This document shows positions 4,535 through 22,477 of a stretch of DNA of 64,000 nucleotides, piece after piece. Made by a program: the position numbers and the translations under genes. The stretch is from contig NZ_KE383972.1 of NCBI RefSeq assembly GCF_000423045.1, positions 143,670-207,669 of the forward strand, written 5' to 3'. Origin of the DNA: Christiangramia portivictoriae DSM 23547. Lineage in GTDB: Bacteria > Bacteroidota > Bacteroidia > Flavobacteriales > Flavobacteriaceae. Each line of letters begins with the position of its first letter. Within the stretch, counting starts at the first letter, position 1. Under the pieces are notes generated by a model. It searched no databases, was not told where the DNA came from, and saw nothing but the letters and a program-made list of their open reading frames with translations.

Positions 4535-4546
4535 AAGTTTTAAATT

Positions 4547-5475: not shown

Positions 5476-8400
5476 ATGAGAAAATTGATTTTCAGGAGCC
5501 TTTTGTTTATCGGAGCACTTATTACCTTCGGTATGGCAAATGCGCAAACTGTAACCGGAACAGTGACAGATGAGAGTGGTCCGCTGCCCGGTGCAACTGT
5601 TTCTATCAAAGGAACATCGACGGGTACCACTACAGATTTTGATGGTAATTACACTATCAACAACGTTCCGGCAGATGCTACACTTATGTATAGCTTTGTT
5701 GGGTATGTTACACAGGAGATCAAGGTGAGTGGGCGTCAAACGATCGATGTCAACCTTGAAACCGATGCATCTGAACTGGAAGAAGTAGTTTTAATTGGTT
5801 ATGGAACCACGACCGTTAGGGATGCAACGGGTGCTGTTGCGTCGGTAACTTCCGAAGAATTTAATAAAGGTAACATTTCTTCTCCTGAAGAATTAATACA
5901 GGGTAAAACTGCTGGTGTGCAGATCACTCAGGCCAGTGGGGAACCAGGAGCTGGAATAGCGCTTCGTATTCGAGGAACAACTTCTGTAAGATCCAACAAC
6001 AACCCATTGTTCGTTGTAGATGGTGTGCCGCTGGCCGGTGACGCTACTGCAGCAGGTGGTGGTGACCTTGGGATTGGTTCCAGCTCTTCCAGAAACCCAT
6101 TGAACTTCTTAAACCCGAGTGATATTGAGAGCATCAGTGTTCTGAAAGATGCTTCGGCAACCGCTATCTATGGTTCCAGGGGTGCGAATGGTGTTGTGAT
6201 TATACAAACCAAGTCTGGTAGAGGAGTGCAGGGTGGTTCTTTTACTTATGATGGTTCTGTAAGTATTGCGAACGCTGCCAATGAATTTGACCTTCTAAAC
6301 GCTGAGCAATTTCTTGACGCCGTAGAGCAATATGGTGGAGATAGAGAAGCTCAGGACTTCGGTGCAGATACAGACTGGCAGGATCAGATCCTTAGAACGG
6401 CGATCTCTCAAAATCATGCATTGTCTTATATGAATAGCTACAGTTCTGGTAACCTTCGTTTATCTTTAGGATATAATGACATTGAAGGGGTTGTGGAGAA
6501 CTCGAATATGGAAAGACTTACGGGTCGTTTAAATGCGAATCAGAGATTTTTTGATGACAGATTAAACCTTGGACTACAGTTAACGCTTTCTAATGTAAAA
6601 GATGAAGCTGCACCTATTGGTAACGATGGTCCTTCTACAGGAGATTTACTTGGAGCAGCATACTACGCCAATCCAACCTGGCCAGCCGAGGTAAGTTTCG
6701 ATCCGGTTGGAAATAGCAGAAATCCACTTGAGATTCTTGAGTACGTTAAGAATGAAACAGAAACCGACAGAATTCTTGTAAACCTTTCTGCAGATTATGA
6801 TATCCTGGAAAACCTGAATGCTAAAATCACCTTAGGTTATGACCGTGCAGAATCTGAGCAGAACGCTTCAGTTTCAGGAAATGTTATAAACTTTGACAAT
6901 GGATCACCAGGAAACGGTCGTGCTCAGTTAAACGATCTTGAAGCTACCAATAGATTAATGGAATTTGTAGTAAACTACGACAAGCAGTTTGACAATTCTA
7001 CTTTTTCTGCCTTATTAGGTTATTCTTTCCAGGATTTCCAGAGAGAAGGACGCTATGCCAATGGTTTTGGATTTGTATCTACAGATAATGGTGCCATGTC
7101 TTCTGAATTAAGAGGAGATATCGACGCACTATACGGAGCAGTAAATGGTGGTTTTAACCAGTTGCGATACAATGCAGATGGTCTTTTGGTAGACAGACTG
7201 TTTACAGATAATGGACCTGTACTAGGGGAATCTGTAAATGCGCCGGGAGGAATCAATACCAGAGTACTTACAAGTGGTACTTATGACAATACAGATGAAA
7301 TCCAGTCTTTCTTTACAAGATTGAACTATTCCCTGGCAGATAAATACTTATTCACTTTTACCATGAGAGCTGATGGTTCTTCAAGATTTGGTCCAGATAA
7401 TCGATATGGTTACTTCCCTTCAGGAGCATTTGCCTGGAAGATCGACCAGGAAGATTTCTCTCCAGATGCCCTATCCACTTTAAAGCTTAGACTTGGATAT
7501 GGTATTACAGGTAACCAGGAAGGTCTTGGATATGGAAACTTTACTATTCGTCGTGTGCTTAATGGCTATGGTATTGACAATGGTGGAAACATAAATGGTG
7601 GAGGACTTGGAACTGCAGGATTTGCTAACCCAGGATTGAAATGGGAAGAAACTGCTCAGGCTAACGTCGGGATCGATTATGGATTCATGAATGATAGATT
7701 ATCTGGTAGTCTTGATTTTTACTATAAGGATACACAGGATCTTCTTCTTGTGGCAGAACAGGCTCAGCCTTCACCGGTACCATTTACATTCCAGAATCTA
7801 GATGCCAGCGTGATCAACAAAGGTGTTGAATTTGCGATTGATTATGATATCATTGATAATGAAAACTTCTTCTGGAACTTTGGATTCAACGTTGCTTACA
7901 ATGACAACGAACTTCAGGATTTCGATGGTTTAATTCAAACCGCTCAGATTTCTGGACAGGGACTTACCGGAGCTTTTGCCCAGTTATTGGCAGAAGGCCG
8001 TCCATTGTTTTCTTACTACTTGAGAGAATTTGGTGGATTTGATGAAAATGGTCTTTCTATCTATCCTAATGGAGATGAGCAGCAGTTCGTTGATAAGAGT
8101 GCACTTCCAACTACAAACCTTGGTATTAATACCAGAGCTGAATTTGGAAACTTTGATGCCTCAATTTTCTTTGCAGGACAGTTTGGTCACTATATCTATA
8201 ACAATACTGCCAATGCATTCTTTACTGCTGGTAGTATAAACAGTGGTAGAAACGTAACTACAGATGTACTTACAAACGGAGAACTTCCAGCGAATGCTCC
8301 AGATGTATCTACAAGATTTCTTGAAAAAGGTGATTTCTTAAGATTACAAAATGCAAGTCTTGGTTATACTATTCCTCTTGCTGAAGACTCTTTCGTAGAA

Positions 8401-8574
8401 AATCTAAGAGTTTATGTAAACGGTCAAAACCTTTTCGTGATCACAGACTATTCAGGTCTTGATCCGGAAGTTAGTGTAGATAAGTCACTAAATGGTTTAC
8501 CAACAGCTGGTATCGATTATACAGCATTCCCTAGACCTAGAACGGTAACATTTGGATTAAATGCTAAATTTTAA
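5476..8574 (+). CDS. susC: SusC/RagA family TonB-dependent outer membrane transporter
   Basis: The 1032-residue protein has a signal peptide cleaved after ANA (residue 23), a CarboxypepD_reg-like N-terminal extension (about 25-105, beginning VTGTVTDESGPLPGATVSI), a plug domain with ALRIRGTTSV and the SusC hallmark GSRGANGVVIIQTK near 235, then a 22-strand-type barrel ending in a C-terminal aromatic (KF). It imports a nutrient across the outer membrane with energy from TonB; the SusD encoded next acts as the lid. Unlike a standard polysaccharide locus, no glycoside hydrolase, lyase or sulfatase is adjacent. The downstream partners are FG-GAP/ASPIC lipoproteins and a haloperoxidase-type protein, so the substrate cannot be guessed from context. 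Confidence 0.95.
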   Translation: MRKLIFRSLLFIGALITFGMANAQTVTGTVTDESGPLPGATVSIKGTSTGTTTDFDGNYTINNVPADATLMYSFVGYVTQEIKVSGRQTIDVNLETDASELEEVVLIGYGTTTVRDATGAVASVTSEEFNKGNISSPEELIQGKTAGVQITQASGEPGAGIALRIRGTTSVRSNNNPLFVVDGVPLAGDATAAGGGDLGIGSSSSRNPLNFLNPSDIESISVLKDASATAIYGSRGANGVVIIQTKSGRGVQGGSFTYDGSVSIANAANEFDLLNAEQFLDAVEQYGGDREAQDFGADTDWQDQILRTAISQNHALSYMNSYSSGNLRLSLGYNDIEGVVENSNMERLTGRLNANQRFFDDRLNLGLQLTLSNVKDEAAPIGNDGPSTGDLLGAAYYANPTWPAEVSFDPVGNSRNPLEILEYVKNETETDRILVNLSADYDILENLNAKITLGYDRAESEQNASVSGNVINFDNGSPGNGRAQLNDLEATNRLMEFVVNYDKQFDNSTFSALLGYSFQDFQREGRYANGFGFVSTDNGAMSSELRGDIDALYGAVNGGFNQLRYNADGLLVDRLFTDNGPVLGESVNAPGGINTRVLTSGTYDNTDEIQSFFTRLNYSLADKYLFTFTMRADGSSRFGPDNRYGYFPSGAFAWKIDQEDFSPDALSTLKLRLGYGITGNQEGLGYGNFTIRRVLNGYGIDNGGNINGGGLGTAGFANPGLKWEETAQANVGIDYGFMNDRLSGSLDFYYKDTQDLLLVAEQAQPSPVPFTFQNLDASVINKGVEFAIDYDIIDNENFFWNFGFNVAYNDNELQDFDGLIQTAQISGQGLTGAFAQLLAEGRPLFSYYLREFGGFDENGLSIYPNGDEQQFVDKSALPTTNLGINTRAEFGNFDASIFFAGQFGHYIYNNTANAFFTAGSINSGRNVTTDVLTNGELPANAPDVSTRFLEKGDFLRLQNASLGYTIPLAEDSFVENLRVYVNGQNLFVITDYSGLDPEVSVDKSLNGLPTAGIDYTAFPRPRTVTFGLNAKF

Positions 8575-8587
8575 AAAAAAATTAATG

Positions 8588-10189
8588 ATGAAAAATAGAA
8601 AGTATTTTACTTTAATTCCAGCCTGCGCACTGTTCGTCTTTAGTGCATGTACAGACCTGGAAATTGAGGAAACAGATTCGATCATCGTCAACCAGACCGG
8701 AGAATTTACCGGAGTTGGTGACGTAGATGCGACCTTGAGCGGTATCTATGATGCTGTACGGGGACAATTAGAAAATCAGGCTAACCTTTACGCTCTTAAC
8801 GAGGTAAGTACAGATGAATTCCTTGTGCCAACCAGAGGAACAGACTGGGGTGATAATGGTGTTTGGAGAACATTACATCAGCACAGCTGGTCTCCAATTC
8901 ATCAGCACGTGAGAGATACCTGGAACGAACAGAACTCTATCATTTTCAGAACTACTGAAATCATTGACGAGAGGAGTAATGCTACTCCACAACAGGAAGC
9001 AGAAGCAAGGTTTTTAAGAGCTTTCGCTACATTCTGGGTGATGGATCTTTATGGCCAGGTGCCATTTAGAGGACCAGATGAAGGGATCGAAGTAGATCCA
9101 TCGGTAATGTCCAGAGCTGAAGCTTTTGATTTCATCATGGAAGATCTTAACACAGCTGCAGCGAATATCGCTACTGCTGCTCCCGGAAGTGAAGCTACCA
9201 ACCGTGCAACAAAAGCAGCTGTTCATTTCATGCTGGCAAAGATGTATTTGAATAAGCATATCTATACAGGAACTGGATCACCAGATGCAGGAGACATGCA
9301 ACAGGTAATTAGTAATGTAGATGCTATTAGCAGTATGGGCTTTGGGCTGGAAGAAGGATATTTTGGTATCTTCTCTCCTAAGCTGGATAACGAAACTATC
9401 TGGTATACCAACTCCGGAGTAGGAAACGTGATGTGGCATACATTACACTACAACCAGAATACCCCTGCCAATGGTGGAGGTGGTTGGAATGGATTTACCA
9501 CATTGGCTGAGTTCTACGATCTTTTTGAAGGTGATCCAAATTCAAACATGATAGGCGATGGCCAGGAAGAACGTAGAGGATTTGTACCAACTGAAGGTTC
9601 TCCTGTAGGAGTTGACTTTGATGGTGATGGCGAGTCAGATGATCTTGACGAGGATGGAGATGGAATGTTAGATGGTTCTCAAATAGGATTTGGGATGTTA
9701 ATAGGACAGCAATACGGGATCGATGGTTCTAAACTACAGGCTGAAGCTGGTAAAGATCTTAGTTTTACAAAAGAACTTCCTGGACTTTTAGGTAATGGTC
9801 AGTCTACCGGGGTTCGTGTGATCAAGTACCACCCAACGAATGGTTCTTTCACCGGGCACAAGATCGTTTTCAGATATGCAGATGCTCATCTCATGAAAGC
9901 TGAAGCTGCACTTAACGGCGGTGGTGGAGACGCTACAGAATTGGTGAATGAACTTAGAACGATACGTAGGGCTTCTCCTCTTAGTTCAGTTACTTCTGAA
10001 GATATTATCGATGAACGTGGTAGAGAACTTTACTCTGAATTCTGGAGAAGAAATGACCTGATCCGTTTTGGTAAGTTTACTGAAGCATGGGGTTATAAAG
10101 ATGCTTCTGAAGATTACAGAACATTATACCCAATCCCGGCATCGGCGATTATATCTAATCCGAATTTAACTCAGAACGAGGGTTACTAA
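8588..10189 (+). CDS. susD: RagB/SusD family nutrient-binding lipoprotein
   Basis: The start was placed at ATG 8588 because it gives a clean signal peptide ending in a lipobox (VFSAC); an in-frame ATG at 8561 would overlap the susC end. The 533-residue protein has SusD features: TPR-like helices with EARFLRAFATFWVMDLYGQVP, and the C-terminal RGRELYSEFWRRNDLIRFGKF segment. Acidic residues after the Cys fit surface export. An unusual calcium-binding-like insert rich in DxDxDG sits at residues 343-363. With SusC it forms the outer-membrane uptake complex. The susC stop is 14 bases upstream, and a terminator follows at 10208. Confidence 0.93.
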   Translation: MKNRKYFTLIPACALFVFSACTDLEIEETDSIIVNQTGEFTGVGDVDATLSGIYDAVRGQLENQANLYALNEVSTDEFLVPTRGTDWGDNGVWRTLHQHSWSPIHQHVRDTWNEQNSIIFRTTEIIDERSNATPQQEAEARFLRAFATFWVMDLYGQVPFRGPDEGIEVDPSVMSRAEAFDFIMEDLNTAAANIATAAPGSEATNRATKAAVHFMLAKMYLNKHIYTGTGSPDAGDMQQVISNVDAISSMGFGLEEGYFGIFSPKLDNETIWYTNSGVGNVMWHTLHYNQNTPANGGGGWNGFTTLAEFYDLFEGDPNSNMIGDGQEERRGFVPTEGSPVGVDFDGDGESDDLDEDGDGMLDGSQIGFGMLIGQQYGIDGSKLQAEAGKDLSFTKELPGLLGNGQSTGVRVIKYHPTNGSFTGHKIVFRYADAHLMKAEAALNGGGGDATELVNELRTIRRASPLSSVTSEDIIDERGRELYSEFWRRNDLIRFGKFTEAWGYKDASEDYRTLYPIPASAIISNPNLTQNEGY

Positions 10190-10207
10190 ACTTTTAAAAA
10201 TTGAATG

Positions 10208-10237
10208 AAAAGAGGGCTATTTTAGCCCTCTTTTTTT
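10208..10237 (+). terminator. Terminator/attenuator between susD and the ASPIC gene run
   Basis: Stem AGAGGGCTA (10211-10219) with TAGCCCTCT (10223-10231), loop TTT, extended by A/T pairs and followed by seven T. It should reduce read-through from susCD into the downstream lipoprotein genes. A reading frame running through it from TTG 10201 is therefore not a credible gene start. Confidence 0.85.
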
Positions 10238-10293
10238 GTTATACATGTGTTAAAATTATTTACCTTTCAACCTCCTCCTCAAAGCGATTTATT

Positions 10294-13200
10294 ATGGCAA
10301 AAGCCATTCGGCTTACATATTTCATTTTTATCTTTATCCTGTTCTCAGCCTGTGAGAAAAAGCAAACTCTTTTTCTTAAAAAAAGCAGTGAATCAACCGG
10401 AATTGATTTCAGTAATCAGCTTGATCCGGACTCTAACCTAAACATCCTTAATTATTTATATTACTATAATGGCGCTGGAGTGGCTACTGCAGATTATAAT
10501 AATGATGGACTTCCAGATCTATATTTCACCTCTAATGAAGCATCAGATAAATTATATGTAAATCTTGGGAATTTCAAATTCAAGGACGTCACCTCACAAA
10601 GCAATATTGAGAACTCTACCGGCTGGACCACGGGAGTTTCCAATATTGATATTAACAATGATGGACTCATGGACCTCTATATTTCGAAAGTTGCAGGAAT
10701 CGAAGATCTGGAAGGTCATAATTTGTTATATATCAATAATGGTATTGATTCAGATGGAAATTTGAAATTCAAGGAAAGTTCCAGGGAATATGGTCTGGAC
10801 TTCAGTGGCTATTCTACGCAATCGGTTTTTCTGGATTATGATCTGGATGGAGATCTGGACCTGTTCCTCCTAAATCACTCCATTCACCCAAATCGGAATT
10901 ATGGTCGTGGGAGCAAACGTTCTTCTTTCGATGCGAAAGCAGGAGACCGAATCTTCAGGAATGACGGAAGCTCTTTTGTAGATGTTTCCGCAGAAACCGG
11001 AATATTCCAGGGTCCTACGGGCTACGGTCTGGGCGTCGCAGTGGGAGATCTTAATAACGACGGTTATTCCGACATATATGTGGGAAATGATTTTTTTGAA
11101 AATGACTATGTATACATTAATCAGCAGGATGGTACTTTTCAGGAACTCATGACCGGTAGTCCGCAAAACCTGGGACATACTTCGCATTATTCCATGGGGA
11201 ACGATATTGCAGATATGAATAATGATGGTCTGGCTGATATTATTTCCCTGGATATGCTACCCGAAAATCTGGAAACCTATAAAACTTCGGGACTGGAATT
11301 TCCTTTTCAGACCTACGCGAATTACTTGAGAAATGGATTCGCGCCGCAGTATATGCAAAATACCCTGCATATCAATCTTGGGGATCTTAATTTTTCTGAG
11401 GTAGCCAATCTGAGTGGTGTCGCTGCGACCGAGTGGTCCTGGAGCGCATTATTTGCCGATTTTGATAATGATACGAACCAGGATTTGTTCATTACCAATG
11501 GAATCAAAGGTGCTACCAATGACATGGATTATATCAAATTCATTTCTACGGAAGAGATTCAGCAACAATTATCCAGTGGGGAGAAAATTGACCTCGAAAA
11601 TCTTACAAAGCGATTACCTGAAAAAAAGCTTGAAAATTATATTTTCAGGAATGATGGTACGCACAGCTTTACAAATGCATCTGAAGCCTGGCTTCCTGCT
11701 CAGGAAAGCTTTAGCCACGGGAGTGTTTATGTGGATCTGGATGATGATGGCGATTTGGATTTGGTGACCAACAACACCGATGACGCGGCTTTTGTCTATG
11801 AAAATACCACAGCAAAAAATAAGTTTTTAAAGGTTCAGCTGCAGGGGCCAGAAAACAATCGATTCGGCATTGGAGCCAAGGTAAGTGTTTATACAAAGTA
11901 TGGAATGCAAATGAAAGAGCAATACCTAAGTCGCGGCTATCTTTCTTCGCTCGCACCGGGATTGCATTTTGGTTTGGGTTCCAGCAAAATGGTAGATTCT
12001 GTCATCGTAAAATGGTTTGATGGCAGCCAGACAATTTTAAAAGATTTGAAGGCAGATCAAAAAGTTGTTGCCAAATATTCTGCTTCTGAAAAATTTGTAA
12101 CTCAAACGAAAGACGATCAGAAAGCTTATGATGCGACCGATTCTATCCTAAATTACCGACATACTGAACAGCCAAGTCTTGACTTTAACCGGCAACCGCT
12201 AGCGCTGTTTGCATATTCAAACCCTGGACCTACCATGGCGAATGGTGATCTAAATGGAGATGGATTGGAGGATCTTGTTCTTGGAGGAGGAAAGTCGCAG
12301 CCATTACAGATCTTTTTTCAGGATAATGCTGCTTTTAGCAAATTTGAAACTACAGCTTTTGAGGCTGATGCCATTTCAGAAAATACCGGAATCGCTTTGC
12401 TGGACTACGATAGGGATAGCGATCTGGACATACTGGTGGTAAGCGGTGGCAATGAATTTAAATCTGGAAAAGCGATCCAGCCCAAGCTTTATCGGAATGA
12501 AAACGGGCAGTTTATAAAAGATGAACGCGGTTTTAAAGGGGTGTCCCTAAATGCTTCAGGTGTAAGTGTGAAAGATTTCAATAAGGATGGCTATCCCGAT
12601 GTTTTCATTTCGTCCAATCTTAAACCCCACGAGTTTGGTTCTAGCACACAGCAATTTCTGTTTATTAATCAAAAAGGCAGGTTTGCGAATGTAACTCCCA
12701 AATATTTCAAGGAGCTGCCCGGTAGCGTACAAACTTCAGAATGGATTGATTTCAACAGGGACGGCTTTCCAGACCTGGTGCTGGCGGGACATTGGAATGC
12801 GCCAGAGATCTACCTCAATAATGGCGGCAAGTCCTTCTCGAAAATGAATAGTAATTTGTCAGATTTCAAAGGCTGGTGGAATGATCTAAAGATTGCCGAC
12901 TTTGATAATGACGGTGACCATGATCTTGTAGTGGCGAACTGGGGTCTTAATTCCAGACTTACGGCCTCTCGGGATGAGCCTGTAAATCTTTACCTGAACG
13001 ATTTTGATGAGAATGGAACTTCAGATCCTGTGCTTACTTATTTTCATAAGGGTGAAGAAACCGTATTTGCTTCTAAAGATGAACTGGACCAGCAATTGCC
13101 ATATTTAAAGAAAAAATTCACCACTTATAAAGATTTTGCTCATGCAGAGCTTTCAGAAATTTTTCCGAAGGAAAAATTAGCAGAAGCGCAACAGCAAAAC

Positions 13201-13578: not shown

Positions 13579-16500
13579 AACCAGTTACATTCAGGTTTTA
13601 GCTATTTGCTTTGTAATATTACTTAGCGCTTGCGATTCAGATAAAAAAAGGGAAGAGGATAATCCTGCAGAAAATAATCGCTCTCAGAATACTCTTTTTA
13701 CTGAAATGCTTCCGGAAGAAACAGGGATCGATTTTATAAACGAAGTTAAGAATCAGCCAGACTTCAATATTTTCAAATACCGGAACTTTTATAATGGTGG
13801 TGGTGTTGCCATTGGAGATATCAATAATGATGGACTCCCAGACATTTACCTAACCGCTAATATGAAACCGAATAAATTGTATCTCAACAAGGGGAACTTC
13901 GAGTTTGAAGATATTAGCGAATCTGCTGGCGTGGAAGGAAACAAACCCTGGTCTACCGGGGTCAATATGGTTGATATCAATAATGATGGTCTTCTGGATA
14001 TTTACGTGAGCAATGCCGGCAATATGGAAGGTGACAATCATGACAATGATTTATATATCAACAATGGTGATCTAACTTTTACTCAAAGAGCTAAGGAGTT
14101 TAACCTGGCAGAAACCGGATTTAGTACGCATGCGTCCTTCTTTGATTACGACAAGGATGGTGACCTTGATGCCTATATCCTGAATAATTCCAATATTCCA
14201 GTGAGTACACTTGGTTTTGCCGAGCAACGTAACATTCGCGCGCAGGATTGGGAAGGGGTCCCTAAGATCTTTAGGGGAGTGGGAGATATGCTGCTAAGAA
14301 ATGATGATGGCGTATTTACCGATGTAAGTGAGGACGCTGGTATCTTCGGAAGTTTGATTGGTTTTGGACTAGGAGTAATGGTGAGTGATTTTAATAATGA
14401 CCTGTATCCAGATATTTATGTGTCTAATGATTTCTACGAGCGTGATTATTTATACATCAATAACCAGGATGGCACTTTTACTGAAGAGATTGAAAACTGG
14501 ACTCAGCACTTATGTCTTTCGGCAATGGGAGTGGATATGGCAGATATCAACAATGATGGTTTCGCTGATATTTTTATCACCGATATGCTTCCCGATTCTG
14601 AAGAAAGGGTCAAATCTGTCATGGAATTTGAAGGTTATAACGTCTTTAAACTGAAGCAAAGCAAAGATTTTTTCCAGCAATACATTCATAATACGCTGCA
14701 GTTGAACAACGGCAACGAGTCATTTTCAGAGATCGCTCATTTTAGCGGAGTTGAAAGTACCGACTGGAGCTGGGCAGGCTTGATCTTTGACATGGACAAT
14801 GACGGGAACCGCGATATCTATGTGACCAATGGAATTAATCATGACCTAACCGATCTTGATTTTGTTGAATTTTTTGCCAATGAGATCATTCAGAAAATGG
14901 CCCTGACCGGAAAAAAAGAAGCGATTGATTCTATTATCAATAAAATGCCGGTTACAAAACTGCCTAATTATGCGTTTCAGAATCAGGGTAATCTGAAGTT
15001 CAAGAACAAAGCTGAAGAATGGGGATTAGGTTTGCCCAGTCTCAGCAATGGTTGTGCTTACGGGGATCTTGATAATGATGGAGACCTTGACCTGGTCGTA
15101 AACAATGTAAATATGAACTCCTTTATTTACAGAAACAATTCTGAGAAAATGGTTGACCATAATTACCTTAGAATTAAACTGGAAGGTGCAGATAAGAACA
15201 GGTTTGCTATTGGAGCAGTGGTAAGGATGTATGCAGGTGAAGATATCATTTTGCAGGATGAAAATCCATCTCGCGGTTTTCAGTCCTCCATGGATTATGT
15301 GCTGAATATAGGCTTAGGTAAGAAGAAGAATTTAGATTCCTTAAGAGTGATATGGCCAGACAATGCGACCCAGTTGCTTCAAAATGTGAAAGCAAATCAA
15401 ACGCTGGTATTGAATCATTCCGAAGCTAAAGATCAATTCAAGATCGGGAAGCAGGCAACATCAAAAACACTGCTTACCGAAGTTTCCAACGATAACCTGG
15501 AAAGTCATACTGAAAATCAGTACACCGATTTCGATTTTGAAGGGATGATCTATAAGAAATTAAGTCAGGAAGGACCAGCGATGGCAGTGGGTGATATCAA
15601 CAATGATGGTAATGAAGATGTATTTATAGGCGGTGCTAAAAAACAAACCGGAGCAATCTACCTTAACCGTGGAAACGGAAATTTGCAGAAGATGAATCAG
15701 CCTGCTTTGACCGCAGATGCCATGTTCGAGGATACCGCCGCTTCGTTCTTTGATGCAAATGGAGACGGAAAACTAGATCTTATGATTGGTTCCGGCGGAA
15801 ACGAGATTGGCGAATCCAGGAATTACCGTCCAAGACTTTATATCAACGATGGTCGTGGAAATTTTAAACCAACCGAAGCTAAGATCCCTTCCGTAGAACA
15901 GAATGTAGCGACGATCGCGCCATATGACTTTGACGATGATGGAGACGTGGATATTTTTATAGGATCCAGAAGTGTGGCAGTAAACTATGGAATTGACCCA
16001 CAGCATTTGTTTCTTGAAAACCAGGGAAATGGTGAATTTGTAAACGCTACAGAAAGGGTTGCCTACGATGTAAAATATGCTGGGATGATTACAGACGCTA
16101 CCTGGGAAGATATGGATGGTGATGGAAAGAAAGATCTCATCACTGTTTCAGACTGGGGTGCACCTCATGTTTATACCAATTCAGGGAAAAGACTGAACCT
16201 GCTTAAAAATGAACTGGAAAAGTATTCTGGATGGTGGAATACGGTGGAAACTGCAGATCTGGACAATGATGGTGACATGGATCTGGTTTTAGGAAATAAG
16301 GGAGCTAATCTGGCCTATGAGACAAGTTTTGAAAATCCTATGAAGTTATGGGTAAACGATTACGATGATAATGGAACTATCGAGCAGATCGTCACCCTGC
16401 ATAGTGATGGTAAGGACTATCCACTGCACATGAAGAAAGAGATGATTTCCCAGCTGGTTTTTCTGAAAAAGGAAAATTTAAAAGCTTCAGAATATGCGAA

Positions 16501-16942
16501 GAAAACCGTACAGGAGTTGATCCCGGATCAAAAAATCCAGAATTCTATAGTTAAGGAAGCGAATATTTCAGAAACCATTATTGCTATCAATGATGGGAAA
16601 GGTCAGTTTAAAATCAAAAAACTTCCGGGAAGAGTCCAGTTTTCTTGTGTTTGCGGAATTTCCTGTGTTGATGTTAATAACGACGGTAATCTTGACCTGG
16701 TAATGGCAGGTAATGATTTTGAATTTAAACCACAGTTTAGCCGACTCGATGCAGGCTATGGAAATGTACTGCTAGGCGATGGTAAGATGAATTTTGAATG
16801 GAAAGATTTTAAAGAAAGCGGTTTCCATATTCGGGATGAAGTGAAATTTCTGAAACGCATTCAGGATAAAGACGGTAAGACTTTTATAATCGCTGCTATT
16901 AACGACCAAAAACCTCGAATTTTTGAAATCAGCAATCTGTAG
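13571..16942 (+). CDS. FG-GAP/VCBS repeat and ASPIC/UnbV domain lipoprotein, paralog 2
   Basis: This is a 1123-residue paralog of the preceding protein. The signal peptide ends in LLSAC, followed by a charged DSDKKREED stretch that resembles the Bacteroidota surface-export signal. It has 14 DxNxDG-type motifs in the same order (for example GDINNDGLPD, ADINNDGFAD, GDLDNDGDLD, then GDINNDGNED and others after the central domain). The ASPIC/UnbV domain has NRFAIGAVV and a GLGKK turn near residues 530-605. The ATG overlaps the preceding stop by 8 bases, and its own end overlaps the next gene by 20 bases. The three paralogs are clearly diverged, so the duplication is old. Binding partner unknown. 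Confidence 0.9.
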   Translation: MNRTSYIQVLAICFVILLSACDSDKKREEDNPAENNRSQNTLFTEMLPEETGIDFINEVKNQPDFNIFKYRNFYNGGGVAIGDINNDGLPDIYLTANMKPNKLYLNKGNFEFEDISESAGVEGNKPWSTGVNMVDINNDGLLDIYVSNAGNMEGDNHDNDLYINNGDLTFTQRAKEFNLAETGFSTHASFFDYDKDGDLDAYILNNSNIPVSTLGFAEQRNIRAQDWEGVPKIFRGVGDMLLRNDDGVFTDVSEDAGIFGSLIGFGLGVMVSDFNNDLYPDIYVSNDFYERDYLYINNQDGTFTEEIENWTQHLCLSAMGVDMADINNDGFADIFITDMLPDSEERVKSVMEFEGYNVFKLKQSKDFFQQYIHNTLQLNNGNESFSEIAHFSGVESTDWSWAGLIFDMDNDGNRDIYVTNGINHDLTDLDFVEFFANEIIQKMALTGKKEAIDSIINKMPVTKLPNYAFQNQGNLKFKNKAEEWGLGLPSLSNGCAYGDLDNDGDLDLVVNNVNMNSFIYRNNSEKMVDHNYLRIKLEGADKNRFAIGAVVRMYAGEDIILQDENPSRGFQSSMDYVLNIGLGKKKNLDSLRVIWPDNATQLLQNVKANQTLVLNHSEAKDQFKIGKQATSKTLLTEVSNDNLESHTENQYTDFDFEGMIYKKLSQEGPAMAVGDINNDGNEDVFIGGAKKQTGAIYLNRGNGNLQKMNQPALTADAMFEDTAASFFDANGDGKLDLMIGSGGNEIGESRNYRPRLYINDGRGNFKPTEAKIPSVEQNVATIAPYDFDDDGDVDIFIGSRSVAVNYGIDPQHLFLENQGNGEFVNATERVAYDVKYAGMITDATWEDMDGDGKKDLITVSDWGAPHVYTNSGKRLNLLKNELEKYSGWWNTVETADLDNDGDMDLVLGNKGANLAYETSFENPMKLWVNDYDDNGTIEQIVTLHSDGKDYPLHMKKEMISQLVFLKKENLKASEYAKKTVQELIPDQKIQNSIVKEANISETIIAINDGKGQFKIKKLPGRVQFSCVCGISCVDVNNDGNLDLVMAGNDFEFKPQFSRLDAGYGNVLLGDGKMNFEWKDFKESGFHIRDEVKFLKRIQDKDGKTFIIAAINDQKPRIFEISNL

Positions 16943-19900
16943 ATATTTACTTTTCTTACTGGTAATCTTACTTTCCTCGTGTACCAAAGACTATAAAAAG
17001 GAAGAGGAGTGCCTCTTTTTTAGTAACCCAAAAGAGAAAGTAACCGGGATCGATTTTGTCAATGAACTTAAGGAAACCCGGGACCAGAACATTCTGGATT
17101 ATCTCTATTTCTACAATGGAGGAGGCGTAAGTATTGGAGATATCAATAACGACGGACTCCCGGATATCTATTTCACCGGAAACCAGGTTAAAAACAGGCT
17201 CTACCTCAATAAGGGTTCATTGCAATTTGAAGACATTACGCTAAAGGCGGGTGTTGGCGGCCAAAGCACCTGGAATACAGGGACGACCATGGCAGATGTT
17301 AACGGCGATGGATTGTTGGATATTTATGTTTCTGCGGTCGTTGGCGTAAATGGTTTTCAAGGTCACAACGAATTATTTATTAATAATGGAGATCTAAGCT
17401 TTACTGAAAGCGCTGCTGAATATGGTCTTGACCTGGATACTTACAGTTCGCAGGCTGCATTTTTCGATCTCGAAAATGATGGGGATCTTGATGTATTTAT
17501 TCTGAATCATGCGGTGCATACCAGCGAATCATTTGGCCCTGCAGAGATCCGGAATAACCGGGTGTACGAGAGTGGTGATAAATTGATGCTGAATGAGAAT
17601 GGAAAATTTAGAGATATAAGTGAACAGGCAGGAATCTATGCCGGAGCGAATTCTTACGGTTTAGGCATCACCACTGCCGATTTCAATAATGATGGCTTTA
17701 CAGATGTATATATTGGGAATGATTTTCACGAAGATGATTACTATTACGTGAACAACGGCGACGGTACCTTCAGCGAGCAGTTGAAGAGCAGGTTTGGGCA
17801 TACGTCCAGGTTTTCCATGGGAAATGACGCCGCAGATATTAATAATGATGGATTTGTGGACCTGATCACGCTGGATATGCTGCCCGAAGATGAAACTGTT
17901 TTAAAATCTTCCGCAGGAGATGATAATGTGAATCTGGACCGTTTTCGTATCGAAAAATTGGGGTATCATCCACAGTACACCCGCAACATGCTTCAGATCA
18001 ATAAAGGTGGGGAATACTTTGCTGAAACGGCACTCATGAGCGGCGTAGCGGCTACAGACTGGAGCTGGGGACCGGTATTTGCAGATTTTGATCAGGATGG
18101 CTCTCAGGATCTGTTTATTAGCAACGGCATTCCCAGACGCCCAAATGATCTGGATTATGTGAAATATACTTCTAATGAGCAAATTCAGAAAAAACTGGAT
18201 AAAACCACCATCGTGGATAATGAAGTGCTCGATAAAATGCCTTCTGGCGCTGTCACTAATTATATCTTTCGGGGTTCTGGAAATGGGCAGTTCGAAAATG
18301 TGACGAAGCGATGGATCTCGAATGATAGCATTATTTCAACCGGAGTGGCCTATGGCGACCTGGATAATGATGGTGACCTGGATATCGTTACCAACAACAT
18401 CAACCAGCCGGTAAGTGTTTATATCAATGATTTCGCGGAAGGAAATTATTTAAAAATCAAGCTTGAAGGGCCAGATAAGAATACCTTCGGAATAGGAGCA
18501 AATGCGATACTTTATACCTCTGAAGGCATACAATCCCGACAACTTTACAGTACAAAAGCTTTTCAGTCTTCCTCGGATCCGTTAATGCATTTCGGTTTAA
18601 AACAAGATGAAATTGCAGATAGTCTAAGGGTTATATGGCCAGGTGATCGTTCACAGCTTATACGCTCACCCAAACTAAACTCTAATTTTTTGCTGAAGTT
18701 TTCCAATGCAAAGGATAGTTTTAAAACTTCTGAAATACTTAAATCCCGAAGCAAACTTCCATTTAAAAGAACTGAAGACTTTGGGATTGATTATAAGCAT
18801 GAAGAGAATATTTATAATGATTTTGATATACAGAAATTGATACCACATCAAACTTCAGATCTTGGACCTGCGGTTCAGGTTGCAGATCTCAATAATGATG
18901 GGCTGGATGATATTATTTTTGGAGCTTCCAGGTTTAAACCAGCAGCGATATTTTATCAGAAAAATGGTGAATTTGTAAAACAGGAAATAGGCGCAATCAC
19001 CAAGGATTCTCTGGCTGAAGATGCCGCGATCACTATTGCAGACCTTGATAATGACGGATTACAAGACATTCTTATCGCCTCCGGTGGCGGAGAATCTGTC
19101 GGGAAAAATAAGCATCTGCTGGATAGGCTCTATTACAACTCAAAATCAGGTGAGTTCAGGAAGTCAGTTGATTTTCCAGAGTTGTACCTCAATTCCTCGG
19201 TCATTAAAACTGCCGACTATGATAATGACGGTGATTTGGATATTTTTATAGGCAGTAATGCACAGAATTACCAGTATGGTGCGATCCCGGAATCGGTATT
19301 ATTACATAATGACGATGGAAAATTTCAGAAAGTACAATCGAAGACCTTTCAGAATATTGGTATGATCACCGATATGATCTGGACAGACATTGATGCAGAT
19401 AATGATTTGGATATGATCATGGTAGGGGAGTGGATGCCTCCTGTGATCCTTGAAAATAACCAGGGAACTTTTGAAAAATCCACGAAGCTAGATAACAGGT
19501 CGTTAAACGGACTATGGCAAACTTTGATCGCTGCAGATATCGATCACGATGGTGATATGGATTATCTTCTGGGCAATTGGGGTCTGAACACAAAATTGAA
19601 AGCTTCAGCTGAACATCCTCTTAAATTATATTACAAAGATTTTGACCAAAACGGTTTAACCGAAACCATTCTTGCCATGGAAAAAGATGGCAAATATTAT
19701 ATGCCTTATGGCCTGGATGAGTTAAGTTCCCAGTTAAACCAGATGCGCAAGAAGTTCACTCAGTATAAGGATTTTGCTGGTAAAAGCATCGATGAAATAT
19801 TTTCTAAAGACGAATTGAATAGCGCAGATTTGCTGGAAGTACATACACTTTCATCTGGTTATCTGGATAATGATAAAGGTACTTTTAAGTTTAAAGCTTT

Positions 19901-20204
19901 TAAGAATGAGTTACAAACAGCCCCAATTAAAGCAATATTTAGTTACGATTTTAACGAGGATGGTAAAGAGGAGGTTCTGGTAGGAGGCAATTATTTTGGA
20001 GTGACCCCATACCATGGAAGATTTGATGCTATGGGTGGCGTGCTGATGTTAAATCAGGATAAAATTCTTGATTCTTATGAAATTGGTTTAAATTTATCAC
20101 AAAAATCTGTTAAAGATTTCTCGATAATTAAAATTGCCAATAGGCCCTATCTTATAGTGACCATCAATAATTCAGAAATTGAAATCTATGAATTCAGTTT
20201 TTAA
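16923..20204 (+). CDS. FG-GAP/VCBS repeat and ASPIC/UnbV domain lipoprotein, paralog 3
   Basis: The third paralog has 1093 residues and appears to start at TTG 16923, inside the end of paralog 2 (20-base overlap). This start gives a good signal peptide and lipobox (LLSSC) followed by TKDYKKEEE, a surface-export-like acidic stretch. No in-frame ATG gives a signal peptide, so TTG is the best choice. It has 14 DxNxDG-type motifs, seven on each side of an ASPIC/UnbV domain (NTFGIGANA, HFGLKQDE). The last two motifs are degenerate (KDFDQNGLTE, YDFNEDGKEE). The frame runs into the haloperoxidase-type gene with a 17-base overlap. No catalytic motif was recognised. Confidence 0.9.
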   Translation: MKSAICRYLLFLLVILLSSCTKDYKKEEECLFFSNPKEKVTGIDFVNELKETRDQNILDYLYFYNGGGVSIGDINNDGLPDIYFTGNQVKNRLYLNKGSLQFEDITLKAGVGGQSTWNTGTTMADVNGDGLLDIYVSAVVGVNGFQGHNELFINNGDLSFTESAAEYGLDLDTYSSQAAFFDLENDGDLDVFILNHAVHTSESFGPAEIRNNRVYESGDKLMLNENGKFRDISEQAGIYAGANSYGLGITTADFNNDGFTDVYIGNDFHEDDYYYVNNGDGTFSEQLKSRFGHTSRFSMGNDAADINNDGFVDLITLDMLPEDETVLKSSAGDDNVNLDRFRIEKLGYHPQYTRNMLQINKGGEYFAETALMSGVAATDWSWGPVFADFDQDGSQDLFISNGIPRRPNDLDYVKYTSNEQIQKKLDKTTIVDNEVLDKMPSGAVTNYIFRGSGNGQFENVTKRWISNDSIISTGVAYGDLDNDGDLDIVTNNINQPVSVYINDFAEGNYLKIKLEGPDKNTFGIGANAILYTSEGIQSRQLYSTKAFQSSSDPLMHFGLKQDEIADSLRVIWPGDRSQLIRSPKLNSNFLLKFSNAKDSFKTSEILKSRSKLPFKRTEDFGIDYKHEENIYNDFDIQKLIPHQTSDLGPAVQVADLNNDGLDDIIFGASRFKPAAIFYQKNGEFVKQEIGAITKDSLAEDAAITIADLDNDGLQDILIASGGGESVGKNKHLLDRLYYNSKSGEFRKSVDFPELYLNSSVIKTADYDNDGDLDIFIGSNAQNYQYGAIPESVLLHNDDGKFQKVQSKTFQNIGMITDMIWTDIDADNDLDMIMVGEWMPPVILENNQGTFEKSTKLDNRSLNGLWQTLIAADIDHDGDMDYLLGNWGLNTKLKASAEHPLKLYYKDFDQNGLTETILAMEKDGKYYMPYGLDELSSQLNQMRKKFTQYKDFAGKSIDEIFSKDELNSADLLEVHTLSSGYLDNDKGTFKFKAFKNELQTAPIKAIFSYDFNEDGKEEVLVGGNYFGVTPYHGRFDAMGGVLMLNQDKILDSYEIGLNLSQKSVKDFSIIKIANRPYLIVTINNSEIEIYEFSF

Positions 20205-21552
20205 AACTTACATACTCCTTGCATGCAGTCTGGTTCTATTCGTTTCCTGTGATCAGGAAGAGAAAGAAATCGTAGTTACACCAGATGATTTTCATGCAGC
20301 GAACGAGCACATTAGTAAAACAATGGTGCACGATATATTTTCTCCTCCTGTGGCAAGCAGAGTATATGCTTACTCAAATATTGCCGCTTACGAAGTAATG
20401 GCTCAGTTTGATGAAAATTATCAGAGCCTGGCAGGTCAACTAACCAACCTGGAAGAAGTACCAGCTCCAGAGTCTGATCTTACCAATCCTGAAGTTGCAG
20501 CCATCGTCGCTTTTTATGATATCGCAACCAGCCTGGTATTTTCAGAAGAAAGAGTGAAGATGAAAAGTGACAGCCTTTATAACAAGTGGAAAAATACCAA
20601 TGAGAGGTCCTTCAAAGTTTCTGAAACGTACGGGAAAAGAGTAGCCGCTCATATAAAGGACTGGTTAAAGCAGGACAATTATTCTGAGACTCGAACCATG
20701 CCTAAATTTTCAATTCTTACAGATGATGAGAGTAGATGGCAGCCAACACCTCCTTCCTATATGGATGGTATCGAACCACACTGGATGAAAATCAGGCCAT
20801 TTGTGATCAATAATGCAAACCAGTTCAAACCGGTACCGCCACCAGAATTTTCTATGGAAGAAGGCTCAAGATTTCATACTGAGCTTATGGAGGTCTATAA
20901 CATCAGGGAAAAGATCGCTCAGGATGAAGAGAACAGTGAAGAAATGGCTATCGCCAAATTCTGGGATTGTAATCCTTATGTTTCCATACTTAGAGGCCAT
21001 TTGATGTTTGCCACTAAAAAGATCACTCCGGGTGGTCACTGGATGGGTATTGTGAAAATTGCCTGCCAGAAGGACGAAGCGAACTTCAGCAAATCTGTTT
21101 ACGCCTATTCTAAGACCGCTATTGCTATTGCAGATGGTTTTATTAGTTGCTGGGATGAAAAATACCGTAGCAACCTTGTAAGACCTGAAACGGTGATCAA
21201 TAAATATATTGATGAGAACTGGACATCTGTTTTGCAAACACCACCATTTCCGGAATATACAAGTGGTCATTCTGTAATTTCTGCAGCTGCTGCCACAGCA
21301 TTGACAGATATTTTTGGTGATAACTTCGCCTTTGATGATGATACTGAAGTAGATTATGGACTACCGGTTAGAAGTTTTGAATCATTTAATAAGGCTTCAG
21401 AAGAGGCAGCAAACAGCAGATTATATGGTGGTATTCATTACCGCGCGGCAATCGAAGTGGGATTAAGCCAGGGCCAGGATCTTGGGAAATATGTGATCGA
21501 TAATCTTCACATGACAAAATCTTCTAATAAAACCGAATTAGCTTCCAACTAA
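20188..21552 (+). CDS. Vanadium-dependent haloperoxidase / PAP2-type phosphatase lipoprotein
   Basis: The start at ATG 20188 gives signal peptide plus lipobox (LFVSCDQEE); a TTG 20179 is possible. The 454-residue protein has the three PAP2/haloperoxidase signatures: KX6RP (K325-R332-P333), SGHS (S359-H361) and SR-X5-H (R411, H417 in YGGIHYR). These residues bind vanadate in haloperoxidases or phosphate in acid phosphatases; His361 and His417 would be the catalytic pair. The length and the KFWDCNP segment fit the large haloperoxidase-like branch rather than small PAP2 enzymes. The HX3D aspartate is replaced by Ala421. It overlaps paralog 3 by 17 bases and precedes the GyrI-like gene by one base. 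Halide oxidation versus phosphatase activity cannot be decided here. Confidence 0.85.
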   Translation: MNSVFKTYILLACSLVLFVSCDQEEKEIVVTPDDFHAANEHISKTMVHDIFSPPVASRVYAYSNIAAYEVMAQFDENYQSLAGQLTNLEEVPAPESDLTNPEVAAIVAFYDIATSLVFSEERVKMKSDSLYNKWKNTNERSFKVSETYGKRVAAHIKDWLKQDNYSETRTMPKFSILTDDESRWQPTPPSYMDGIEPHWMKIRPFVINNANQFKPVPPPEFSMEEGSRFHTELMEVYNIREKIAQDEENSEEMAIAKFWDCNPYVSILRGHLMFATKKITPGGHWMGIVKIACQKDEANFSKSVYAYSKTAIAIADGFISCWDEKYRSNLVRPETVINKYIDENWTSVLQTPPFPEYTSGHSVISAAAATALTDIFGDNFAFDDDTEVDYGLPVRSFESFNKASEEAANSRLYGGIHYRAAIEVGLSQGQDLGKYVIDNLHMTKSSNKTELASN

Positions 21553-21553
21553 C

Positions 21554-22477
21554 ATGATCAAGAAGTTCGTAACAATCCTGCTGGGTGTTCTACACCTCAG
21601 CCTGGGTTGGTTTTTATTTGTGAAAAAGTACGATTACCAGTTCAGGTTTCAGGCAAAGCATTCTCCTGCTCTGGTTCAGCAGGAAATCAAAGACATCGAA
21701 GCTTACAGTATTTTTAAGAGTCAGCCGAAAGTTGTATTTCAGCAAAACGAAGGTTACCAGGAAATTCTACAAACCCTGCAGTTTGGAGACGAAGAACTTC
21801 AGCTATTGTGGGAATTGGAAAATCATGCAGACAGCCTTACTAACATTTCCGTGAATGTTGCATCCAATAAATCAATTGGTAATAGACTTGCTCTGCTGAA
21901 TGTATTTGCTTATAGTGACTATATTGACAGTCTTGAAAACTCTTTTCTGAAATTTGGTAAGGAGTTGCTGAAAAGACAGTCGGCTTATAGGGTGCAGGTG
22001 ATCGATAGTATCGTGTATTCTCCCGCGCTCGATTGCATTTGCAAACCTGCTGAAGGTATTAAGGTTGAAAACAAAGCCATGCAAATGGTTAGAGATATTG
22101 GTTACCTGGAAGACTTCCAGATCGCCCATAAACTAAAACTGACGGCTTATCCATTCGTAAAGATCAAGGCCTGGGATGAACAGAACGGTACTATAGACTA
22201 TGACTTTTGCTTCCCGGTAAATCTTGCCCAGGATATAAGGCCCAATACGTTTATTGAATTTCAGCAATTTCCGGCAACGACTTCTTTGAAAGCGATTTAC
22301 AATGGAAATTACAGGAGTTCAGATCTTGCCTGGCATCAATTGCTTTCTGAAGCAAGTGAACGTAGTCTGAAAACCAGTAAATTGCCTCTTGAAATCTTCT
22401 GGAATAACCCTAAAACCGGAGGAGATGCTTTGAGTTGGAAAGCCGAAATCTTTATGCCGGTAGAGCCTCGGAAGTAA
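21554..22477 (+). CDS. Membrane-anchored protein with C-terminal GyrI-like (effector-binding) domain
   Basis: The 307-residue protein starts with one hydrophobic helix (about 5-23) and no lipobox, so it is probably anchored in the inner membrane. The middle part (about 35-150) is not recognised. The C-terminal 140 residues fit a GyrI-like/AraC effector-binding fold: YPFVKIKAWDEQNGTIDYDFCFPV, then an LKAIYNGNYRSSDLAWHQLL segment, and EIFWNNPKTGGDALSWKAEIFMPV at the end. Such domains bind small molecules. One base separates it from the haloperoxidase gene, so it is the last gene of the ASPIC operon. Its end overlaps the convergent lipid-kinase gene by 26 bases. Function unknown. Confidence 0.7.
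   Translation: MIKKFVTILLGVLHLSLGWFLFVKKYDYQFRFQAKHSPALVQQEIKDIEAYSIFKSQPKVVFQQNEGYQEILQTLQFGDEELQLLWELENHADSLTNISVNVASNKSIGNRLALLNVFAYSDYIDSLENSFLKFGKELLKRQSAYRVQVIDSIVYSPALDCICKPAEGIKVENKAMQMVRDIGYLEDFQIAHKLKLTAYPFVKIKAWDEQNGTIDYDFCFPVNLAQDIRPNTFIEFQQFPATTSLKAIYNGNYRSSDLAWHQLLSEASERSLKTSKLPLEIFWNNPKTGGDALSWKAEIFMPVEPRK

Follow-up and report, generated by a model that had tools for sequence, protein, structure and literature searches.

Iodine uptake by Arenibacter sp. C-21 requires glucose, O2 and Ca2+, but glucose can be dispensed with if a system that generates peroxide or oxidises iodide is added (PMC5064120). The genome of this strain encodes five or more homologues of the Zobellia enzyme (PMC5064120). 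In Zobellia itself, upregulation on Ascophyllum is reported for the vanadium iodoperoxidase (vIPO) vIPO3 (PMC9296495). In SusCD utilisomes and polysaccharide utilisation loci, an adjacent SusC–SusD pair shares an operon with accessory proteins that carry lipoboxes, an organisation also found here. In CRTAC1 (9etn), an ASPIC/UnbV domain comes after an FG-GAP propeller, and FG-GAP repeats are described as calcium-binding (PMC2668756). We analysed a 64,000-nucleotide stretch of the genome of Christiangramia portivictoriae DSM 23547 (the window), in which a SusCD pair is followed by giant ASPIC/FG-GAP lipoproteins, a vanadium-iodoperoxidase-type lipoprotein and a GyrI-like protein.

All genes of this cassette lie on the forward strand. 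The SusC-type TonB-dependent outer-membrane channel (5476–8574; TIGR04056, 717 bits, above cut-off), which also carries Plug and CarboxypepD_reg-like domains by Pfam, precedes a SusD-type lipoprotein (8561–10189; PF07980, 79.9 bits). A terminator- or attenuator-like hairpin on the same strand (10207–10235; 13-pair stem, 3-base loop, T tail) separates susD from three FG-GAP/ASPIC lipoprotein genes: ASPIC1 (10294–13578; PF07593 69 bits, seven PF13517 matches), which occupies position 3 and is found in three-ASPIC operons; ASPIC2 (13571–16942; PF07593 68 bits) in position 2; and ASPIC3 (16923–20204; PF07593 55 bits), which falls in the position 1 group and adjoins the iodoperoxidase-type gene (20179–21552, or from an ATG at 20188). 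The GyrI-like protein (21554–22477), with one N-terminal hydrophobic segment by eye, completes the set. The mechanical open reading frame of ASPIC1 starts at a TTG at 10201, just 5′ of the hairpin; the ATG at 10294 is the better start. Overlaps of 8, 20 and 17 bases, then a 1-base gap before the last gene, had been claimed from the sequence alone and were confirmed from the open reading frames, the ASPIC3–haloperoxidase overlap being 17 bases with ATG 20188 and 26 with TTG 20179. Pfam and NCBIfam identify three UnbV_ASPIC and FG-GAP_3 proteins at the locus, and these are the only ASPIC matches in the whole genome. The lipoboxes proposed for the giant lipoproteins and the haloperoxidase are seen on ASPIC1–3 and the haloperoxidase, as well as on SusD; these proteins may be displayed at the cell surface. 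The reported absence of glycoside hydrolases, lyases and sulfatases also held, as Pfam found none in the 13 genes scanned (428–24390). No linked regulator was found among these 13 genes either, so that the locus differs from polysaccharide utilisation loci in having no degradative enzyme or regulator among the scanned genes, and propellers and a haloperoxidase as its accessories. A scan with a consensus pattern found no Bacteroidota-type promoter 5′ of susC.

The predicted vanadium haloperoxidase-type lipoprotein was borne out and can be narrowed down. Its PAP2 domain scores 32 bits (cut-off 27.2), and the full-length protein is 58% identical to the crystallised Zobellia protein 4usz/4cit (phmmer E 4e-192), which we take to be ZgVIPO1. 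The structural model (pLDDT 78.8) matches 4usz/4cit with a TM-score of 0.82 by query and 0.90–0.91 by target. The vanadate-site residues K328, R335, S362, G363, H364, R414 and H420 are the same in all 92 near sequences, the window included; across 19 distant sequences the K, R, H, R and H are invariant, while S is replaced by A once and G by A four times. By sequence, the window enzyme belongs to the ZgVIPO1 vanadium-iodoperoxidase family, sharing its full-length fold and vanadate-site residues. The PDB titles of 4usz/4cit read "first bacterial vanadium dependant iodoperoxidase". Whereas ZgVIPO1 appears as a single enzyme in the literature examined, its putative iodoperoxidase relative in the window sits in an operon with SusCD, ASPIC and GyrI-like genes.

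The ASPIC proteins adopt a CRTAC1-like propeller fold. An AlphaFold2 model of ASPIC2 (pLDDT 89.9) matches 9etn in Foldseek (TMt 0.71), a profile search links 9etn to the ASPIC protein at E 7e-28, and both defining elements of CRTAC1-like proteins, the FG-GAP propeller and the PF07593 domain, are present. The window proteins differ from CRTAC1 in being bacterial lipoproteins of roughly double its length; they have a second propeller-like half, which in ASPIC2 follows the ASPIC domain. ASPIC1 contains 12 DxDxDG-type loops. ASPIC2 is 95% identical in the nearest relative (L050), the other two 83 and 85%. In the ASPIC tree, 7 label changes separate the five groups, where 4 is the minimum and shuffled labels need 107.7 on average; the position groups are imperfect clades (2 changes for position 1, 4 for position 2 and 3 for position 3), and the ASPIC genes are thus nearly position-specific orthologues.

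The gene order is conserved beyond close relatives, as the sequence-only reading had required of a real system: it holds across genera of Flavobacteriaceae. Among 80 named loci, the top 80 by score from 581 confirmed candidates and hence near relatives, an ASPIC gene lies directly upstream of the enzyme in 70 and a GyrI-like gene directly downstream in 68; ten have no adjacent ASPIC, and six have none anywhere in the stretch. Outside the order, the enzyme adjoins ASPIC in 12 of 20 loci chosen by hand, not at random, and the other 8 have no ASPIC (for genome G355, with long antisense frames at L160/L240, adjacency was taken from match coordinates). The enzyme therefore also occurs without the module. 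Across 395 Bacteroidota genomes, ASPIC is present in 76 of the 78 with the enzyme versus 108 of the 317 without (Fisher p 2e-27, which ignores relatedness); the 78 were set at E 1e-30, and some hold only distant relatives, such as G072 at 28% identity. A Zobellia uliginosa locus (L099) has three ASPIC genes, enzyme and GyrI-like gene in the order of the window, and three Arenibacter loci (L059, L061 and L122) read ASPIC–ASPIC–enzyme–GyrI-like. The distance between susCD and the first ASPIC gene is ~5 kb in G167, ~5 kb in G102 and ~11 kb in the Zobellia genome G133, where susCD, unlike in the window, does not directly adjoin the ASPIC and enzyme genes. Because the arrangement recurs in many genera and enzyme–ASPIC adjacency extends beyond the order, it is more than chance: a conserved system exists.

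A second, diverged haloperoxidase type (DUF6851, PF21167) keeps similar company. In the order sample, ASPIC lies within 7 kb in 6 of 10 full-length places, and the PF21167 type occupies the same chromosomal slot in G567, a genome without a ZgVIPO-type match at E 1e-60. In G163, one protein of 1346 amino acids fuses a PF21167 haloperoxidase to FG-GAP/ASPIC. BLAST at E 1e-8 found no ASPIC half in five other long DUF6851 frames (three in G236, one each in G253 and G336), so the count of such fusions is one.

For the SusCD pair, the evidence leans towards a sugar, and the earlier proposal of a cargo other than an ordinary glycan was not supported. The best solved match of SusD is the starch-binding SusD 3ck7 (E 1e-29). 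In a SusD tree with 33 rows labelled as cassette, none of them dropped, 29 fall into a single group that also takes in one control row (its support of 94 is below the starred level) and stands beside SusDs of alpha-glucan-type loci. Members of this group accompany the enzyme in other orders as well (L157, L161 and L165). The exceptions are two alpha-glucan-type SusDs that merely fall inside the fetched stretch (L182 11987 and L183 11693), a row on a very long branch that may not be a SusD (L183 10286), and L184, the second copy of G573, which falls elsewhere. Six control loci in the sister group carry GH65, LacI, bPGM and MFS genes. The sequence-only reading had also named an outcome that would speak against it, SusCD clustering with a known polysaccharide while the other genes vary freely. 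Half of this came out: the sister SusDs belong to alpha-glucan-type loci, whereas the cassette genes show no such free variation.

Sugar genes adjoin the cassette in several lineages (an SGLT-like symporter, xylose isomerase, trehalase and kojibiose hydrolase), carbohydrate-active enzymes in some relatives, and a LacI-type regulator stands beside SusCD in some. Compared with 40 control SusD loci, chosen by hand and not at random, the symporter is found in 28 of 94 cassette loci versus none, xylose isomerase in 13 versus none and trehalase in 5 versus none; these counts are neither independent nor unbiased, because the queries were drawn from cassette loci, which are moreover related to one another. 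Alpha-glucosidic hydrolases stand beside 5 of 80, 6 of 10 and 2 of 4 members of three cassette sets (13/94), 1 of 11 distant cassette loci and 6 of 40 controls. We therefore rejected an alpha-glucoside as an established substrate, despite trehalase, kojibiose hydrolase, GH97 and GH65 neighbours: this class is not clearly enriched over controls, even though the query enzymes themselves originate from cassette loci. By kinship and neighbourhood, the ligand is likely a sugar. A role of the SSF symporter in iodide transport was also rejected: the two proteins compared, from L017 (E 6e-65) and L154 (E 9e-92), have sodium/glucose cotransporters as their closest solved structures, and the sodium/iodide cotransporter ranks far lower. 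Beside a Zobellia SusCD, a HAD-family protein (L181:12222–12884) matches the dehalogenase-like superfamily; from its GH65 context we take it to be beta-phosphoglucomutase-like. A stem of at least 9 pairs within 160 nt 3′ of susD occurs in 15 of 18 cassette loci versus 10 of 40 control SusD genes, and in 14 of 400 random stretches; terminator-like sites in the whole scan show no excess (11 versus 12.7 in shuffles).

The window GyrI-like protein scores 23.4 bits against PF06445, below the cut-off of 26, and the family is matched by 6 of 9 aligned members, the window included, at E 0.01 (best E 5e-10). Upstream of susC lie, on the same strand, a GMC oxidoreductase (2834–4534) and a Gluconate_2-dh3-type small subunit (4547–5191; PF13618 69 bits), likely its partner, with a twin-arginine-like NRRQ and a lipobox-like LQSC at its N-terminus by eye. 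Of the 20 genus genomes with the enzyme, 17 have the GMC gene at a distance of 12–16 kb from it; the gene adjoins the cassette in Salegentibacter (L125) too, and is possibly linked to it functionally. As a peroxide source the protein is a weakened candidate, since its closest solved relatives are fructose and glucose dehydrogenases, pyranose oxidases match more weakly, and the gene is present in G553, G563 and G567, all without an enzyme match at E 1e-60.

We tentatively favour, at somewhat below even chances, a sugar SusCD combined with a surface iodide-oxidising module, as a candidate genetic basis of Arenibacter-type glucose-, oxygen- and calcium-dependent iodine uptake. The SusCD complex would import a small, probably alpha-glucosidic sugar; two or three giant propeller lipoproteins may cover the channel as a scaffold or clamp, and their FG-GAP loops could account for the calcium requirement. 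With vanadate and hydrogen peroxide, the iodoperoxidase lipoprotein would oxidise iodide on the cell surface, yielding hypoiodous acid or I2, so that during sugar uptake oxidised iodine might be captured, peroxide detoxified or competitors hit. The GyrI-like protein may serve as a small-molecule sensor or sink. Arenibacter genomes other than that of C-21 hold the cassette, and the haloperoxidase, calcium and glucose needs fit, whereas the glucose oxidase proposed for C-21 has no clear counterpart in the window. Also counting against this reading are the enzyme loci without an adjacent ASPIC gene, the lack of clear enrichment of alpha-glucosidic hydrolases, the dehydrogenase kinship of the GMC protein and the report of vIPO3 as the vIPO induced on Ascophyllum. 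In a stronger form, sugar and iodine uptake would be a single process: the enzyme oxidises iodide, calcium-loaded propellers retain the reactive iodine, or a carrier sugar that has been iodinated, above the channel, and import is through the cassette SusCD. This form seems decidedly improbable.

The PAP2-fold enzyme might instead be a phosphatase that dephosphorylates a sugar phosphate or a phosphorylated glycoside on the cell surface before SusCD imports the sugar. ZgVIPO1 relatives could act in this way in vivo: the lower-ranked Foldseek matches include acid phosphatases as well as 3bb0, which is titled an apochloroperoxidase caught dephosphorylating, and the sugar-type SusD kinship and nearby sugar genes would suit such a role. 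We consider it unlikely, given that the 58% full-length identity to the deposited iodoperoxidase stands far above any phosphatase (E 1e-40 versus 3e-3) and that the second haloperoxidase type likewise adjoins ASPIC. An ordinary sugar importer might also merely share an operon with a peroxide-scavenging or antagonistic surface haloperoxidase useful during algal feeding. The loci without an adjacent ASPIC gene (10 of the best 80 named) or without ASPIC (8 of the 20 distant), the hairpin dividing susCD from the remaining genes and the distant susCD in G167, G102 and G133 point that way; the overlapping genes, position-specific ASPIC orthologues, natural fusion and the presence of the cassette SusD group alongside the enzyme in other orders point to a joint machine, and we regard independent functions as rather unlikely. 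A module for halogenated or phenolic organics such as algal defence chemicals, with propellers binding them, the enzyme halogenating or dehalogenating them and SusCD importing the product, would make use of the same parts, but the SusD groups beside alpha-glucan-type SusDs and, of the neighbours that could be assigned to a family, most are sugar genes, which makes this reading distinctly doubtful.

The sequence-only reading had singled out the locus as the strongest candidate in the window for an undescribed system. The conserved set of SusCD, giant lipoproteins and haloperoxidase lipoprotein agrees with this, and we found no description of the operon in the literature searched, outside which most subscription journals lie; nor did the literature examined tie any locus to iodine uptake in marine Flavobacteriaceae. 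Some members of this group are iodine accumulators with several vanadium-haloperoxidase genes, and a conserved operon of SusCD importer, propeller lipoproteins and iodoperoxidase-type enzyme makes iodine uptake a question for gene deletion. The widespread giant ASPIC/FG-GAP lipoproteins gain a testable role as SusCD accessories and haloperoxidase partners, because one natural fusion and two diverged haloperoxidase types keep ASPIC company. The cassette is a testable genetic lead on how marine bacteria might take up iodine.

Seven genes on the forward strand of the window form an operon: susC (5476–8574), susD (8561–10189), three genes for giant lipoproteins termed ASPIC1 (10294–13578), ASPIC2 (13571–16942) and ASPIC3 (16923–20204), an enzyme gene (20179–21552) and a gene for a GyrI-like protein (21554–22477). 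The sequence-only reading had described these genes and their overlaps, and the ORF coordinates bear it out; the lipoboxes it reported were found on ASPIC1–3 and the enzyme, and SusD also carries one. In profile searches, SusC and SusD gave clear family matches, all three large proteins contain UnbV_ASPIC and FG-GAP repeats, and the sixth and seventh gene products are a PAP2-type protein and a weakly matching GyrI-like protein. The window's three ASPIC proteins are the only ASPIC matches in the whole genome.

The enzyme is a lipoprotein of the iodoperoxidase (ZgVIPO1) family. The PDB entries 4usz and 4cit, both titled "first bacterial vanadium dependant iodoperoxidase", were matched at E = 3e-252 with a profile built from 12 enzyme homologues and at E = 4e-192 with the single window sequence. 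Using Foldseek on an AlphaFold2 model of the enzyme (pLDDT 78.8), we obtained 4usz and 4cit at ranks 1 and 2 (identity 58%; TM 0.82 by query and 0.90–0.91 by target), while acid phosphatases in the same list reached E = 3e-3 or weaker. Residues K328, R335, P336, S362, G363, H364, R414 and H420 are unchanged in 92 of 92 near sequences, window counted. The 19 distant sequences all keep K, R, P, H, R and H, whereas A replaces S in one and G in four.

The ASPIC2 model (pLDDT 89.9) is most similar to murine CRTAC1 (9etn; TM 0.71 by target length, identity 19%). A profile search agrees (E = 7e-28), with integrin alpha-V as the next match, and pattern counting located 12, 12 and 10 DxDxDG-type loops in the three window proteins. 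A 214-protein ASPIC tree sorts the operon members by position into three orthologous groups with few exceptions: five labels required 7 changes, against a possible minimum of 4 and a mean of 107.7 after shuffling. All 18 giant ASPICs from enzyme-less loci lie on one side of a single branch. Among the 21 other fetched ASPIC loci, nine have a SusC-like gene near the giant ASPIC (L029, L030, L034, L035, L038, L039, L040, L043 and L045), and giant ASPIC proteins may therefore be general SusCD accessories.

The gene set recurs well beyond the genus. Enzyme matches at E ≤1e-20 occur in 13 of 196 genomes of the order, one being a 28% relative (G072); in 11 of the remaining 12, window counted, an ASPIC gene adjoins the enzyme gene or is separated from it by one small gene (L027), the exception being G079. 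Among 80 named loci, the best-scoring of 581 confirmed candidates, an ASPIC gene lies directly upstream of the enzyme in 70 and anywhere in the stretch in 74, and the GyrI-like gene follows immediately downstream in 68. It is absent from all 10 loci lacking an adjoining ASPIC, and from two with ASPIC (L108 and L129), both close to a contig edge. Those 10 loci (L056, L070, L072, L073, L082, L087, L111, L114, L115 and L118) all have an SdiA-regulated-type gene immediately downstream of the enzyme; in the majority, an SGLT-like symporter gene lies upstream. In a phylum sample of 395 genomes, the enzyme or a relative (E 1e-30) was present in 78 and ASPIC (E 1e-8) in 184; ASPIC accompanied 76 of 78 enzyme-bearing genomes versus 108 of 317 enzyme-less ones. 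ORFs place ASPIC next to the enzyme or one gene off in 11 of 20 hand-picked loci outside the order (L154, L157, L161–L166, L169, L170 and L173), and match coordinates do so in L160, the twelfth. No ASPIC was found in the other eight (L155, L156, L158, L159, L167, L168, L171 and L172), of which the L171 and L172 stretches end at contig ends. At two distant loci (L154:10918–12582 and L165:9813–12524), an amidase or GH116/GDE-like protein is encoded between ASPIC and the iodoperoxidase-type gene.

The SusD tree comprised 85 proteins: 33 labelled as cassette, window counted, 40 hand-picked controls and 12 from enzyme-less ASPIC loci. One group (support 94, drawn open) holds 29 cassette rows, including SusDs from other orders (L157, L161 and L165), and one long-branch control. 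Its sister group (joint support 99) consists of six control SusDs, whose loci carry GH65, LacI, bPGM-type and MFS genes (the alpha-glucan type), and two SusDs of L182 and L183, both from this kind of locus. Of the two other cassette-labelled rows, L184, which is the diverged second copy of one genus member, falls elsewhere, and L183 10286 has a very long branch. The best solved match of the window SusD is a starch-binding SusD. Together, the tree and this match indicate, with moderate support, that the SusCD pair travels with the cassette and is of sugar type by kinship. In Zobellia-like genomes, susCD lies about 5–11 kb from the first ASPIC gene.

A hairpin with a T tail (10207–10235) separates susD from the first ASPIC gene. 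Under a fixed rule (stem ≥9, ≤1 mismatch, ≤160 nt past susD), 15 of the 18 cassette loci examined have such a hairpin, against 10 of 40 SusD genes used as controls and 14 of 400 stretches taken at random; L125, L165 and L188 are the cassette loci with no hairpin fitting the rule. Partial termination here would keep the giant proteins below the level of SusCD.

A second haloperoxidase type is also found near ASPIC. PF21167 (DUF6851) proteins occupy 15 places in 12 of the 196 order genomes, 10 of them full-length (over 170 bits). ASPIC lies within 7 kb of six of these (G143, G059, G111, G163, G105 and G128) and is lacking within that distance in four (G133, G150, G188 and G095). G163 additionally encodes a 1,346-residue fusion (L233:5166–9206, reverse strand) of a CRTAC1-like FG-GAP/ASPIC half with a DUF6851-type haloperoxidase, which also bears a type IX secretion tail; its DUF6851 part is one of the five weaker PF21167 matches, with SGH and SR...H motifs readable in the sequence. 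The ASPIC part is absent from five further long DUF6851 frames.

Upstream of susC, a genus-conserved set (428–2687 and 2834–5191) encodes a nucleoside-symporter-like MFS protein, a xylose-isomerase-like TIM barrel lipoprotein, a GMC protein and Gluconate_2-dh3. This set could be a sugar-oxidation pathway of the 3-keto-glycoside type. Twenty genus genomes carry the enzyme at E 1e-60. In 17 of them, the GMC gene lies 12–16 kb upstream of it, as in the window; the GMC gene lies elsewhere in G554 and on a separate contig in G570 and G561. Three genomes have the GMC gene and lack the enzyme at this threshold, and their slot holds a different SusCD with one ASPIC (G563), SusCD and ASPIC alongside a haloperoxidase of the DUF6851 type (G567) or nothing (G553). 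Across Christiangramia species, the slot between Gluconate_2-dh3 (4547–5191) and a diacylglycerol-kinase-type gene (22452–23354, reverse strand) contains differing SusCD/ASPIC/haloperoxidase sets or none (L174/L229, L175/L230 and L232). The kinase-type gene is convergent with the GyrI-like gene, ending 26 bases inside it, and adjoins an APP1 phosphatidate-phosphatase-type gene (23401–24390, forward strand); both occupy the same place in other genus members. In Salegentibacter (L125), the GMC pair flanks the cassette on the opposite side.

Sugar-related genes beside the cassette in other lineages include those for trehalase (detected by Pfam in L022 and L027 and by BLAST in L105, L120 and L188), kojibiose hydrolase (by NCBIfam in L025 and by BLAST in L023 and L024), GH97 (L026) and xylose isomerase together with an SGLT-like symporter (L017 and others). 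Alpha-glucosidic enzymes, present at 13 of 94 cassette loci and 6 of 40 control SusD loci, show no clear enrichment. More common at the cassette are the symporter (28 of 94 versus 0 of 40) and xylose isomerase (13 of 94 versus 0 of 40), with query proteins drawn from cassette loci.

The cassette is a SusCD locus carrying a haloperoxidase module, with all parts from known families. Its lipoproteins would be displayed at the surface in a joint complex, its SusCD would bind a sugar, and the enzyme may oxidise iodide in vivo. A tie to iodine uptake is suggested by findings in Arenibacter C-21, in which uptake occurs with glucose, oxygen and calcium, glucose can be replaced by a peroxide-generating or iodide-oxidising system, and at least five 4USZ homologues are present (PMC5064120). 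Three other Arenibacter loci carry the cassette. PMC9296495 reports higher expression of Zobellia vIPO3 on Ascophyllum than on alginate; PMC8490876, PMC10643221 and PMC12188728 offer background only. We found no description of the operon in the literature searched, which misses most subscription journals; in one of these searches, the sole paper to mention haloperoxidase as well as SusD was PMC5064120, which lists them apart. What is new is the conserved combination of these parts and its possible tie to iodine.
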